From assembly GCF_000786105.1 (NCBI RefSeq), contig NZ_JTEV01000010.1, positions 124,001 to 188,000 of the forward strand: 64,000 nucleotides of DNA, given 5' to 3'. Under the pieces are notes generated by a model. It saw nothing but the letters and a program-made list of their open reading frames with translations, did no database searches and was not told the origin of the DNA. The position numbers and the translations under genes are program-made. Position 1 is the stretch's first letter. Each line of letters opens with the position of its first letter. This stretch comes from Bdellovibrio sp. ArHS (GTDB lineage: Bacteria > Bdellovibrionota > Bdellovibrionia > Bdellovibrionales > Bdellovibrionaceae). Shown here piece after piece: positions 2,217 through 7,340 of this stretch.

Positions 2217-3050
2217 ATGGTGCCGGTTCTTATGAATTTAAATTTGCCTTTGCATGATTACACCTTTGTCGCTTTTGATACTGAAACTAGTGGAGCTTAT
2301 CCCGTGGGGCACGACATCGTCGAGTTTGGCGCCATCAAATGGTTTCAAGGCGAAGAGGTTGGCCGCCTGCAGTTTCTTTTGAAGCCACGCGAACCCATGA
2401 CCGATTTCATCATCGGTATTCACGGAATCACCAACGAAATGGTGCAGGATGCCCCCGCGATGGCTGATAAAATTCATGAGATCCATTCTTTCATCAAAGG
2501 GTCGGTAGTGATGGCACATCATGCTCCTTTTGATATGGGTTTTTTGGCGGCGGAGTTTGAAAAGTATCATCTGTCACTGCCGCCTGAGCCGGCTTTGTGC
2601 ACCAGTCTTCTTTCGCGTAAATGGATTCACGGTGTAGAAAATCACAAGCTGCAAACTTTGGTGAAGCATTTGACCATTGATGGGGGCCAGGCCCATCGCG
2701 CTTATGACGATGCAAAATCATGTTTGTATGTTGCGCTGGCCTGTTTTCAGAAAATGGATCCGAACGTAACATTGACTGATGCTATAAAAAGTCAGGGAAA
2801 AAATCTTTGGTGGCGCGATTATTCTTTGGCCGCCTTGAATGAATCCAAGTTCGTGCTGCTCAAACAGGCAATTCTGGCGAAACAAGACGTGGACATGGTA
2901 TATATGGGGGGCTCGGCAAAAGGGGAAGTGCGTCGGGTCACGCCTATCGGAATAGTCCGAAATCCTGACGGAGATTATCTTCAGGCTTTTTGTCACAAAG
3001 AAAAAACGCCCAAGCGTTACTATTTAAACCGCATCGCCGATGTTGGGTAA
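2217..3050 (+). CDS. DEDDh 3'-5' exonuclease with WYL-like C-terminal segment
   Basis: A 277-aa protein of the DnaQ/RNase T exonuclease fold. The DEDDh motifs are visible: FDTETSG gives Asp21 and Glu23, HHAPFDMGF gives Asp106, and HRAYDDA gives the His160/Asp165 pair. The family removes nucleotides from 3' ends of DNA or RNA. About 100 further residues follow. The last 60 or so (VDMVYMGG, EVRRVTPIGIV, YYLNRIADVG) resemble the strand pattern of a WYL ligand-binding domain. It is not clearly the polymerase III epsilon subunit, since that tail is unusual. The frame is open further upstream, but ATG 2217 with AAAAAGG just before it is the first start that fits the conserved fold. Confidence 0.82.
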   Translation: MVPVLMNLNLPLHDYTFVAFDTETSGAYPVGHDIVEFGAIKWFQGEEVGRLQFLLKPREPMTDFIIGIHGITNEMVQDAPAMADKIHEIHSFIKGSVVMAHHAPFDMGFLAAEFEKYHLSLPPEPALCTSLLSRKWIHGVENHKLQTLVKHLTIDGGQAHRAYDDAKSCLYVALACFQKMDPNVTLTDAIKSQGKNLWWRDYSLAALNESKFVLLKQAILAKQDVDMVYMGGSAKGEVRRVTPIGIVRNPDGDYLQAFCHKEKTPKRYYLNRIADVG

Positions 3051-3262
3051 ATTCATTCATTCCTTCTCATTTTTTCAGATCAATAGGCCTTCGTATAGTT
3101 GTGTACGCTGACCCCCCTCTTAGAAAACGTTTTTTTTGAAGAAACCTCTTCAGCAATACTAATTTCGGTGAATCCAGCCGATATTATAATGTAGGTGAAG
3201 TCTCACTATCGTGGAATTCTAGGTGCGAGAGAATTTCATCTGAGGTTAAACTTGGGGGGATT

Positions 3263-5317
3263 ATGGATATATCCAGAATATCTGGAACCAAAGGATTTTC
3301 TGTCGTAGAGACTCTGGTAGCGATAGGTGTCCTGGCCGTCTTACTGGGTTTGACGGCTGTGGGACTATCATCTAAATGGCAAGGACTTCGGATTGTTTCA
3401 GATCAAGAAAGCTGTGCTGAGAATTTACGTGCGGTGGCCTCGAAGATAAAGGGACTAGGTGTGAATTTAGACTCGACGCCGGTGGGTCTGCAGGATCTGT
3501 CCAATGTACGATGGGTTGAGAATCTACCTTCAGAACAATCAGATGCTTCGACGGGAGGGGGCCTCATTTCAGTCGCTGATAGATGGGGCGCGATTCAAGG
3601 AAAGAGTTTACTTAGTCAGACTCCAAAGACCACGGTTTCAAGATTGCCCTATTTATATAATGGAACGAATCAGATATTAGCCTCTGTGTTTAATTCCTCG
3701 CCTGAAGTTTGCACTCAAGGAGTGGATCTTTATTCCGTATTTCAGCACGATAAGATTTCGGACCTTGAAAAGGGACAGATCACAATCAAGATTCAGCCTT
3801 ATCTTGCGTCATCCGGAGAGGTCATTTCCTGTAAAAATATCGTGCGCCCCCTTTACAGCAGACCATTGTCACGAAACGAACCCGCAGCAATGGTGCAGGA
3901 TCGAGTTGCAACGTTTGGGGAAAATATCTGGGATATCGGATGGAATGTGGAATTAAAAGGAACTTCCGGGAACGCGAAGGGCGCCGGAGTCGCCTGTTCT
4001 TTGTCTTTGAACTTTATGCCTCAAGTTGATTCCGATGAGCCTGTCGAACCAGAGTTTAAAAATATCGTTAATGAATCTAAGGCCACCGCAAAAGTTTGCG
4101 AGTTTCCGACACATAAATTTTCATTTGAAGTCGGCTATTTTTCAAAAAAGAGAGGTCCCGGAGACGGAATGTTGTGCCGAAGCCTGTCTTCGACTTTTTT
4201 GCCTCAAGGGAAAGAGATTTGTCCGGGAGCCCCCATCATACCAGAGTTCCAAGAGTCGAACCTGTGGGTGCCTTGTGATAAACTATCAATTTGTGGGCGC
4301 TCTCCTTCAAGGGTTGTTTCAACGGCCGACCAGAACTCTGCGGAGTTTCTCAAAATCGAATACGAAAATATTCCTTGGAGCTGCCAGATAAACCTTGAAG
4401 CCCTGAGTGTCGATGGAGCTGGGAATCTTTCGAAAAAATCCTTTCTATCGGAGGTCATTCGAGTCCCTGCCTGTGCTTATTGTGCGAGTACTCGCAAGGA
4501 CCAATGTTTAGATTGTCCGGCAGATACCGCCTGCGGTCAGCGAGTGGTGAAGGCCGATAGCGAAGTTTATACGTCTGAACGACTGTGTGTGCACAAGGCC
4601 AGAAAGTGCACCCAAGAGGTCTGGGCCCGTGCGACCGTGGTGACCTGGTTGCCCTATAGGGTCGTCGGTGATGACCCTAACTGTTGTATAGAAGCCGGGG
4701 TTTACAATGAAAAGCCTTCTTGCCAATTTTTCCCCAACCCTGGGAATCAACCTCCTTATAGAGATGTTCGTACACATGGGTATCCCGCGGGTCTCGGTTC
4801 CGGGGATGGGTGTGGAGGCTATGCTTGTTGGATTGGGTGGCACAACATATTCCAGTGCTTTGCCATAAACTCCTTTAGTGCTACGGCCGAGTGGACTTTT
4901 AATGGGAAGGCCCCTCCGGGAGTTACATTCGTGACGAAAGTTGCTCCGATGGCGTCCTTTGCGCCTGATTGCGATGAGATGGTAGATCGAAGTCAAGTGG
5001 TGCCGCCACCTTCACCAGTACCATCACCAAAATCAAATGAGGCCGATGAAGAACAGGTTTTAGAAGTCACCATGGTAGCTCCCGAAAAAGTTTCGACTAA
5101 GGGTGCTTCCGTGAGAATTCTTGGAAAAGGTTTCGGTAGCCAAACTCAAGTTTTTATTGGTGGAGCTCTTTGCGGAGACGTGGCCGTACTGTCGTCTGCG
5201 GAAATGACTTGCTTCGCGCCGCCAAGGGCTGCTGCTGGGAATGTTCGGGTTATGGTCTCTAACGGAACTGGAATCCAAAAAGAGTGGAGTGGAACGTTGG
5301 TCTATGAAGAGAAGTAA
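3263..5317 (+). CDS. Large pseudopilin with Cys-rich ectodomain and C-terminal IPT/TIG-like domain
   Basis: A 684-aa protein starting with a type IV prepilin signal. KGFSVVETLVAIGVLAVLLG has the Gly-Phe cleavage site (Gly11/Phe12), Glu at mature position 5 (Glu16) and a long hydrophobic helix. Pilins are usually 150-200 aa, so this is several times the normal size. The ectodomain has many Cys, including a cluster near residue 400 (CAYCASTRKDQCLDCPADT), suggesting a disulfide-stabilised surface protein. A Pro-rich linker (PPPSPVPSPK) leads to about 85 residues with the pattern of an IPT/TIG immunoglobulin-like fold (GASVRILGKGFGSQTQVFIG). A strong GGGGGG Shine-Dalgarno stretch precedes the ATG. 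It is first in a tightly overlapping three-gene operon. A role in adhesion or as a pilus/T2SS tip component is inference. Confidence 0.82.
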   Translation: MDISRISGTKGFSVVETLVAIGVLAVLLGLTAVGLSSKWQGLRIVSDQESCAENLRAVASKIKGLGVNLDSTPVGLQDLSNVRWVENLPSEQSDASTGGGLISVADRWGAIQGKSLLSQTPKTTVSRLPYLYNGTNQILASVFNSSPEVCTQGVDLYSVFQHDKISDLEKGQITIKIQPYLASSGEVISCKNIVRPLYSRPLSRNEPAAMVQDRVATFGENIWDIGWNVELKGTSGNAKGAGVACSLSLNFMPQVDSDEPVEPEFKNIVNESKATAKVCEFPTHKFSFEVGYFSKKRGPGDGMLCRSLSSTFLPQGKEICPGAPIIPEFQESNLWVPCDKLSICGRSPSRVVSTADQNSAEFLKIEYENIPWSCQINLEALSVDGAGNLSKKSFLSEVIRVPACAYCASTRKDQCLDCPADTACGQRVVKADSEVYTSERLCVHKARKCTQEVWARATVVTWLPYRVVGDDPNCCIEAGVYNEKPSCQFFPNPGNQPPYRDVRTHGYPAGLGSGDGCGGYACWIGWHNIFQCFAINSFSATAEWTFNGKAPPGVTFVTKVAPMASFAPDCDEMVDRSQVVPPPSPVPSPKSNEADEEQVLEVTMVAPEKVSTKGASVRILGKGFGSQTQVFIGGALCGDVAVLSSAEMTCFAPPRAAAGNVRVMVSNGTGIQKEWSGTLVYEEK

Positions 5318-6026
5318 GGGATTCACAGTGATTGAAGTCCTGGTGGCAACAGGTTTGGCAGGAGTGGCAATAGGCGCATCCCTGTACTATCTAAAATTTG
5401 TGAAGGAAAACTATGTTGCGGTAGTAGGAGCGATCAGCCACGAAGAAGAGTTGATGAAGATGTTGTACTTTTCCAGATCGTACCTCAGTCAGGCTATTAA
5501 TCTGAAAACTACGACAAACAATATAGATAGCTATAAATCCGATGGACAACAGGGGTTGTTAAGATTGGGAAGTTTTGGCCAAGCGGGTGATGGCAGCGTA
5601 CACACCCTGGGGCTTTTCAAACAAGAACACGCGACTAGGAATAAGAGCTCTTATAAGGTGACAGGGATGTTCTTCAAAGAGCCGACGGAAAATACTCCAG
5701 GGATGATTTTCTTTGATACGGGCGGAGAGCCCCGGCCCTCGCATAAAGCAATTTCTTTTAGTGGGTTGTTGTCCATGGCGGTGAGTGAGCCGCAGATCAC
5801 GGCAGAAGGGAACGTCCATTCTGTACAGATCGAAATAAAAACAAGACGTTTTTTTTCTGGGCAGAGTTGGTGTCTGCATAAATGCGAAGAGCGTAGATAC
5901 CGGGATATTGGAAGAAAGACGCGAATTTTCTTTAGGAATAATGTCATTCGCGACAGCGCCAAGGGCGTTTTCGCAGATCGTGCTTTTGGGAAGATATATT
6001 TTTTTAGATCGGAAATCTTGAAATGA
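5304..6026 (+). CDS. Type IV pseudopilin (prepilin-type N-terminus), 240 aa
   Basis: The N-terminus MKRSKGFTVIEVLVATGLAG is a textbook class-III prepilin signal: short basic leader, Gly-Phe cleavage site, Glu5 and hydrophobic helix. The rest is a soluble domain that I do not recognise beyond minor-pilin character, with a Cys pair near the end (WCLHKCEERR). ATG 5304 lies directly before the leader and overlaps the preceding pseudopilin gene by 14 nt, so translational coupling is likely. The frame also runs upstream to an earlier Met, but that would bury the leader. The protein would be inserted in the inner membrane and cut by PilD-type prepilin peptidase before assembly. Confidence 0.83.
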   Translation: MKRSKGFTVIEVLVATGLAGVAIGASLYYLKFVKENYVAVVGAISHEEELMKMLYFSRSYLSQAINLKTTTNNIDSYKSDGQQGLLRLGSFGQAGDGSVHTLGLFKQEHATRNKSSYKVTGMFFKEPTENTPGMIFFDTGGEPRPSHKAISFSGLLSMAVSEPQITAEGNVHSVQIEIKTRRFFSGQSWCLHKCEERRYRDIGRKTRIFFRNNVIRDSAKGVFADRAFGKIYFFRSEILK

Positions 6027-7282
6027 ATAAGGCCGGTTTTTCGCTATTGGGATTTGCACTGATTTTTGCCGTGATTTCGTCTGTTATCATGTTCGAGATC
6101 ACCAGGAATTTTGATTCGCTTTTGAAGACGAAAATGATTTATCGAAGAGCTTATTTGGCACAAAGTGCTTCAGAAGATATCGCCCAGAAGATTAAGCGCG
6201 CGTACGATCTTGGGGTCATGGTGAAGAATAAAGGAAGTCAGTGCTCTACCTATGGCAATCTTTATCCGCTGCGCGTAGGAAATCTTGATTTCTGTTTTCC
6301 AGAGGGTGATGAATTGTGCGGCATCGATGGCATTTACTGTTTGAAGACCTCTTCGATTCGCAGGGCGGTCTTTACGGCCTTCAGGGAGCGAAACTCAAAA
6401 TTTAAGATGATGGCGCAAGCTCTTCTTGGCGTCGATGTTCGGGCTTCTCAAGAAAGTGTTTATTGGCCAGAGGACCCCCGTTCAGCTCATATAAGTAATG
6501 CAATGGTTTTGGACGACTGCGAAGACGGCTCATGCTATTCTTGTGGTAAGGATCTAGTGTGCGTCTCCTACGAAGTCTGCTTGAAAAGCGGGCTTACCTG
6601 CGCAAGTGTCATCGAACAAGTTGTCGGTTTTCCGGAAAAGACTCCAAGTTCCTGCAAGGACTTGGTGGAAATGGGTTTTACCGCTGATGGGAACTATACT
6701 ATCATTTTGCCTGATCGCGGGCCGACCGAAGTGTATTGTAAGATGAATCCATCGGATGAATGTGGAGCTGGCTGGATGTTGGTTTATTCACAAAATGGTG
6801 CGACCATTCTTCCGGATGATTCAACGCCCACTGCGGGAGCCAATTATCCCAAAAACCCCGAGGAACGAACCACGGGACGAATCCTGCCTTCAGTGGATTG
6901 GAATGATGACATGATCGCATGTTCTCCAGATGGAGGAGCGACTGTTCATAGACTTTGTTTTAAGAAAGATAACATTGTGTGGGATACCGTGAGAACGGAG
7001 TCTTCGACGTGCACCTATGGACTGAAGCCTATCGAGGGCAGTGGTGGTGCCGGAGGACAAGCCAATATCAGTTATGTCGAGAAATCGAAAGGAACGAGTG
7101 GTGGGCCTCCTTGTGGCAACACGTGTGACTTCGAAAAGAGATTTCGTTTTGACGGAAAAACTCCAGGCGGTCTTCCCGTGACCATAGGAGTATCGGCTTC
7201 ATCTTGTGGGACAGAGGAGCCTGTGTGTGGGAATGTTCAAGGGGCTAACGCAAATATGAAGTTTTGGTATTATGTGCGTTAG
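6023..7282 (+). CDS. GspK/PilX-like minor pseudopilin with fibrinogen-like segment
   Basis: A 419-aa protein whose start overlaps the previous stop (ATGA). The N-terminus MNKAGFSLLGFALIFAVISS looks like a prepilin leader (cleavage after Gly5) but has Gly rather than Glu at mature position 5. Lack of Glu5 is a known trait of the tip pseudopilin GspK. From about residue 211 the sequence CKDLVEMG, DGNYTIILPDRGP, EVYCKMN and CGAGWMLV matches the start of fibrinogen-related domains (the YC-x-GGGW pattern). At least 16 Cys are present. A terminator follows. Display of a lectin-like domain at the tip of a pilus-like fibre, perhaps for prey contact, is inference. The domain call needs a profile search. 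Confidence 0.8.
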   Translation: MNKAGFSLLGFALIFAVISSVIMFEITRNFDSLLKTKMIYRRAYLAQSASEDIAQKIKRAYDLGVMVKNKGSQCSTYGNLYPLRVGNLDFCFPEGDELCGIDGIYCLKTSSIRRAVFTAFRERNSKFKMMAQALLGVDVRASQESVYWPEDPRSAHISNAMVLDDCEDGSCYSCGKDLVCVSYEVCLKSGLTCASVIEQVVGFPEKTPSSCKDLVEMGFTADGNYTIILPDRGPTEVYCKMNPSDECGAGWMLVYSQNGATILPDDSTPTAGANYPKNPEERTTGRILPSVDWNDDMIACSPDGGATVHRLCFKKDNIVWDTVRTESSTCTYGLKPIEGSGGAGGQANISYVEKSKGTSGGPPCGNTCDFEKRFRFDGKTPGGLPVTIGVSASSCGTEEPVCGNVQGANANMKFWYYVR

Positions 7283-7307
7283 CGCACGGTTCGCGAAAGG
7301 CTTTCAA

Positions 7308-7340
7308 GGGAATTTCGGAAAAATTCCCATTTTTAATTTT
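7308..7340 (+). terminator. Intrinsic terminator of the pseudopilin operon
   Basis: GGGAATTT and AAATTCCC form an 8-bp perfect stem with a five-base loop, followed by ATTTTTAATTTT. It sits 25 nt after the last pseudopilin stop and runs into the 3' end of the convergent lspA gene. Confidence 0.75.

Follow-up and report, generated by a model that had tools for sequence, protein, structure and literature searches.

A pilin operon in Bdellovibrio that probably encodes an accessory filament tip with TIG and fibrinogen-like modules

Three overlapping pilin genes, psp1, psp2 and psp3, lie in a 3.54-Mb draft Bdellovibrio genome (G000), within a window of 64,000 nucleotides (C10:124001-188000) that comprises the whole stretch of DNA analysed. 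Judged from sequence, the operon probably encodes an accessory I/J/K-type tip (priming) complex of a type IV filament carrying grafted binding modules, a reading to which we assign a probability of about 0.6. Its observed basis consists of the prepilin leaders, the gene overlaps, the co-occurrence of three families, the boundaries of the modules, a patchy distribution and the replacement of the locus in relatives.

Organization of the operon and prepilin leaders

The three intact, co-transcribable frames occupy window positions 3263-5317 (psp1), 5304-6026 (psp2) and 6023-7282 (psp3) on the + strand, with overlaps of 14 bp between psp1 and psp2 and of 4 bp between psp2 and psp3. The products are a large modular pilin of 684 aa, a GspJ/PilW-like pilin of 240 aa and a GspK/PilX-like pilin of 419 aa, and with 26 Cys in psp1 and 20 in psp3, 'Cys-rich' is a fair description. 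The psp1 leader (MDISRISGTKG/FSVVE) contains Glu5, the psp2 leader reads MKRSKG/FTVIE, and in the psp3 leader (MNKAG/FSLLG) mature position 5 is Gly and Glu5 is missing. The earlier note had described three overlapping genes with prepilin-type leaders, a Cys-rich ectodomain in the first and a third without Glu5; its coordinates and leaders proved exact, and the psp2 start is best placed at the ATG at 5304 (MKRSKG/FTVIEVLVATG), a refinement.

A strict leader test on the 134 window ORFs of at least 80 aa passed psp1 and psp2 and no others. Since psp3 was not accepted by this script in that set, it is called a pilin on the strength of a family HMM match and a confidently modelled alpha1 helix of 66 residues. 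In leave-one-out HMMs, which are family profiles built without the window's own proteins, psp1 is matched at E 7.7e-41 (aa 2-532), psp2 at E 7e-41 (aa 2-237) and psp3 at E 2.5e-14 (aa 1-99, with a weak extra match at aa 157-196). Pfam N_methyl exceeds its cut-off in psp2, the only one of the three, and reaches E 0.035, under the cut-off, in psp1. The alpha1 helix is modelled with moderate confidence in psp1 and high confidence in psp3, within structure models that are poor overall (pLDDT 48-49). The class III prepilin leader followed by a long N-terminal alpha1 helix places the proteins in the type IV pilin/pseudopilin superfamily.

A possible terminator, a stem-loop followed by a T-run (7308..7328, + strand), lies 3' of psp3 in sequence common to close relatives, a call weakened by the only mild excess of terminator-like sites over shuffles. 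Upstream of psp1, the element GTGTACGCTGACCCCC at window positions 3101-3116 is the single occurrence in the window, against 0.01 expected (<=2 mismatches); no role emerged for it.

TIG and fibrinogen-like tails beyond the pilin parts

The leave-one-out family matches stop before the C-terminal ends of psp1 and psp3, the order-wide family part being aa 2-532 in psp1 and the pilin part aa 1-205 (6023-6637) in psp3. As family similarity ends before both tails, the TIG and fibrinogen-like parts look as if they had been grafted onto older pilins, and both proteins have the build of modular pilins, with a pilin part and a separate non-pilin domain beyond the family boundary.

The IPT/TIG-like fold that had been proposed to end the first gene is borne out at aa 602-673 (5066..5281, + strand): PF01833 matches at E 2.1e-7 (31.3 bits against a curated cut-off of 20.9), the AF2 model reaches a pLDDT of about 80-90 in this region of an otherwise poor model, and Foldseek aligns it with the IPT/TIG domains of EBF1/EBF3 at probability 1.0. 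No TIG domain was found in ten large pilins of related and comparable clusters, and among the family members compared so far the TIG tail is private to psp1. Both TIG and fibrinogen-like folds are recognised binding-type folds, which would support a tip with binding modules; TIG domains are often merely structural, which counts against a binding role.

The C-terminal tail of psp3 (aa 206-419; 6638..7279, + strand) begins with a fibrinogen/ficolin-like segment at aa 208-254, and the remainder is unrecognised. Its relationship to PF00147 and NF040941 is seen only indirectly, through phmmer and Foldseek and not by direct profile match, psp3 giving no match to Pfam (PF00147) or NCBIfam (NF040941) even at E 1 and thus none at the Fibrinogen_C cut-off. 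By phmmer, aa 208-254 match ficolin-1 at E 6e-4, and psp3 matches, at E 2.8e-15 in a small ORF set, a relative in which Fibrinogen_C (Pfam 6.6e-49) and NF040941 (7.4e-76) domains are each found five times. Foldseek pairs psp3 with ficolins at probability 1.0 over about 46 residues. After aa 254 the model confidence is very low and the last ~160 residues are unrecognisable, so that 'fibrinogen-like' is secure for the first ~50 tail residues only; the fibrinogen-like segment earlier ascribed to the third gene holds for aa 208-254, and its extension over the last ~160 residues is not secure. Full-length K-type rows were misaligned with this tail in alignment A1, and trimmed rows were used. In a comparison with 60 relatives and 291 genomes of the phylum, this genome alone had a pilin with a fibrinogen-like tail.

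Fibrinogen-like repeats also occur in a family (f18) of secreted proteins of ~1190 aa encoded directly downstream of long fibre-like genes (L124:1767-5351; L126:3415-6993; L128:1477-5040; L129:2600-9728; L130:3110-6691; L131:1071-4652; L132:3717-7286). Each of the two proteins tested (L124, L126) has five such repeats, and an S74 chaperone domain is found in six of the neighbour genes, the L124 upstream gene, cut by the contig end, lying outside the scan. A 265-aa fibrinogen-like protein (G012, L049:8309-9106) likewise adjoins an S74 fibre gene. The fibrinogen-like proteins and the neighbouring fibre genes may form paired adhesin systems.

Pilin types and the likely filament

From profile comparisons, psp2 is clearly a GspJ/PilW-type pilin, matching GspJ at E 2.9e-9 (hhalign) and the J-type pilin of a cluster kept widely in Bdellovibrio at E 2.5e-8. 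The nearest profile to psp1 is the I-position pilin of that same cluster (E 1.6e-7), a weak I assignment. For psp3 the comparison has no clear winner and is not distinctly GspK-like, and the K/PilX-like assignment draws on the missing Glu5, the gene order and the long helix. Set against GspIJK, the resemblance is clear for J and weak for I, and for K it lies in the missing Glu5 and gene order only. The operon has no H/FimU-type adaptor gene, which counts against the tip model.

As had been stated before, the trio has no gene for a major pilin, ATPase or PilC beside it; such genes are found elsewhere in the genome, which contains a T2SS cluster with GspG-K (contig C21), a PilA-like pilin and six matches to the T2SSE ATPase family that exceed the cut-off. 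The operon flanks contain no gsp genes, so the trio does not lie in a gsp operon as T2SS pseudopilins do. No PilY1 was detected among the three proteins by Pfam or is encoded in the operon, which does not have the set of PilY1 with FimU, PilV, PilW and PilX; genome-wide searches for PilY1 (PF05567) and PilW (PF16074) also gave no match, with controls silent too, and are little informative. Nor do the psp proteins match TadE/F/G in Pfam or NCBIfam; their leaders are of the N_methyl type instead, which sets them apart from Kil/Tad.

These data bear on a rather unlikely alternative, in which the trio forms another T2SS pseudopilus tip in the periplasm and its modules select or push particular secreted substrates and do not meet an outside surface. 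It would fit the proximity of psp2 to GspJ, which at least equals that to the other cluster's J-type pilin, the presence of a T2SS in the genome, and the fact that the T2SS tip likewise consists of I, J and K with no further minor pilins. However, the cluster on C21 already has its own GspI, GspJ and GspK beside the T2SS genes, psp1 lies closer to the I-position pilin of a non-T2SS cluster, and surface binding is a better fit for large variable end modules. With psp2 GspJ-like, psp1 nearer the non-T2SS cluster and psp3 without a clear winner, the comparisons favour a type IVa pilus only mildly over a T2SS pseudopilus.

Replacement of the operon at the exonuclease-lspA site

The flanking genes motA-motB-OMP-exonuclease and lspA-dacB-slt are kept in all 16 fetched congeners. 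The operon is present at this site in 0/16, with something else or nothing in its place, and at 22 named lspA loci one weak helix-level match was obtained and nothing more. Relative to the closest relatives, whose lspA is 98% identical, homology ends at 3035 and returns at 7306; the segment between (3036..7305, no strand assigned) is a swapped cassette without counterpart in them, a chemoreceptor-like gene standing there instead. The adjacent lspA-like protein shares 90% identity with its counterpart in B. bacteriovorus kdesi (NZ_CP102930.1). Across the congeners (L094-L109) the gap measures between 15 bp and nearly 8 kb, and the genes in it, where it is not empty, are unrelated to one another: chemoreceptor-, Lon-, HflX- or ABC-like by look of sequence. 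In Bdellovibrio at large, the exonuclease-lspA gap is a hotspot of gene turnover.

No foreign base composition was found, gene-level GC lying within about 1.5 sd and GC3 within about 1.7 sd, and this ordinary composition suggests a similar donor or a non-recent gain; loss in relatives instead of gain is possible. That the operon is a recently gained passenger, silent or non-functional, is very improbable: its absence from the site in every compared congener and promoter-like sites no commoner than in shuffles speak for it, and three intact frames, translational overlaps and a base composition fitting the genome speak against it. The trio looks like an accessory cassette, exchangeable and not needed by every predator.

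Distribution of the families in the order

Among the loci compared, 15, from 15 genomes of the order, unite members of the psp1, psp2 and psp3 families, with varying gene order and orientation; this is a count and not a frequency, as the loci were picked for containing psp relatives. With a psp1-core profile, matches that extend past the pilin helix are almost restricted to the order, and those listed elsewhere nearly all stay within the helix. Such extended matches occur in 7 of the 21 sampled Bdellovibrio (the genome itself, G008, G010, G011, G014, G021 and G022), and the family is absent from B. bacteriovorus kdesi (G015). Scans of genome contigs and of plasmids for psp3 returned no match.

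The genome contains another cluster of the same layout on C42 (L133:7681-12541; 887, 320 and 412 aa), cut by the contig end, and further trios of large, J-type and K-type pilins are found in its closest relatives, G018 and G001 (L134:11048-16233; L135:10925-16109); all three have diverged too far for the psp1 profile to match past the helix. Besides a 930-aa pilin-like protein that lacks Glu5 and has a coiled-coil-like stretch, the widely kept Bdellovibrio pilin cluster, present in two copies in the genome, encodes pilins of I type (160 aa) and J type (320 aa) and a 380-aa protein that looks secreted (L089:5362-10785; L092:5497-11005; L137, L140, L141, L142 and L143). Next to nine related pilin loci lie genes for long membrane proteins of a single family, apparently multi-pass and with a DSExW motif near the start (L042:2551-3987; L044:3828-5510; L048:7388-9013; L175:2195-3889; L178:10202-11785; L182:2874-4598; L184:3919-5817; L134:9123-10961; L135:9000-10838), sometimes accompanied by family 2 glycosyltransferases. 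A role of these proteins in pilin modification is a guess; as a glycosylation partner for the trio the family was rejected, as it has no Pfam glycosyltransferase match and is absent from the psp operon.

Model of the tip and its possible role

In the favoured model of a filament tip, a prepilin peptidase would cleave psp1 (I/PilV position), psp2 (J/PilW-like) and psp3 (K/PilX-like), and their N-terminal helices would pack into a short bundle. The resident machine, encoded elsewhere in the genome, would polymerise a major pilin beneath this bundle, and psp3, lacking Glu5, could occupy the very end of the filament. As the trio would lead the fibre, the grafted C-terminal parts would be held at the tip, where the Cys-rich and TIG region of psp1 and the fibrinogen-like tail of psp3 may bind a surface ligand, probably one carried by prey or by some other surface. 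Because the pilin parts are kept across the order and the end modules differ, the cassette would behave as an interchangeable tip, gained and lost at variable sites. Processing, the trimer, the tip position, the filament type and the ligand are what we infer.

The earlier note had proposed a tip complex mounting binding domains on a pilus-like fibre, possibly for prey recognition. The first part is the best reading of the co-occurring families, the GspJ-like psp2, the missing Glu5 of psp3, the TIG domain and the fibrinogen-like segment. A dedicated and essential role in prey recognition is argued against by the patchy distribution, with the family confined to a third of sampled Bdellovibrio and lacking in kdesi, and by the empty or otherwise occupied site in congeners. 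The conservation check thus points to an optional, variable tip; prey binding is neither shown nor excluded by it, and prey recognition by the trio is plausible. A tip for surface sensing, gliding on solids or DNA uptake, with modules that bind non-prey ligands, is improbable: patchiness within a predatory genus shows that the operon is not needed for predation as such, but the modules are akin to lectin-type fibrinogen domains, used beside S74 fibre genes in relatives, and cell adhesion is favoured.

MAT fibres and a MIDAS adhesin account for only a part of how Bdellovibrio picks and grips such varied prey. If the tip model is true, accessory pilin-based tips with differing end modules would add to adhesive diversity from a second source, one that can be deleted, and natural tip variants would be suited to deletion and binding tests in laboratory predators. 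More tentatively, and doubtful as a whole, Bdellovibrionales might possess order-specific exchangeable pilus-tip cassettes, made of a J-type, a K-type and a large modular pilin, with end modules shuffled between lineages, horizontally renewed tips that help set prey range, and fibrinogen-like modules shared with S74 fibre adhesin loci.

Comparison with known systems

Modular pilins, PilY1/minor-pilin clusters and Kil tips are already known kinds; private here are the TIG tail and the fibrinogen-like tail. The trio resembles the GspI-GspJ-GspK tip of the T2SS in having three minor pseudopilins in a row, a J-like second gene and a third without Glu5. GspK carries an internal alpha-domain (PMC8179133), whereas psp3 has a C-terminal fibrinogen-like tail instead, and in the trio psp1 greatly exceeds the other two genes in size, with no secretion genes alongside. 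Myxococcus xanthus has several alternative PilY1/minor-pilin tip clusters per genome, thought to serve one type IVa pilus (PMC7541494), and several putative tip clusters likewise occur in the present genome; those clusters comprise FimU, PilV, PilW and PilX with a separate PilY1, whereas the trio has no PilY1-like gene and bears its modules on the pilins.

The Kil/Tad tip KilLMN is a heterotrimer in which one small pilin joins larger modular ones; predation employs several paralogous sets that can be interchanged, and B. bacteriovorus is predicted to have Tip-like complexes (PMC12075869). The trio would have a comparable make-up, with a small pilin beside bigger modular ones in a putative heterotrimer and several alternative sets; Kil tips are of the TadE/F/G type, in contrast to the class III (N_methyl, GFxxxE) leaders and the GspJ-like member of the psp genes. 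The MAT chimeric fibre adhesins of Bdellovibrio are found on the predator's surface and combine a common shaft with tip domains that vary (PMC10769870); unlike the trio, they are trimeric fibres of ~1,000 aa and not pilins. In modular type IV pilins, such as S. sanguinis PilB and PilC and an InterPro set of 264 architectures, a functional module is grafted at the pilin C-terminus (PMC8179133), as in psp1 and psp3. TIG and fibrinogen-like modules are outside the functions named in the text of that paper, as opposed to its full dataset, for the most frequent architectures, and the trio differs in combining two modular pilins within one J/K-linked operon.
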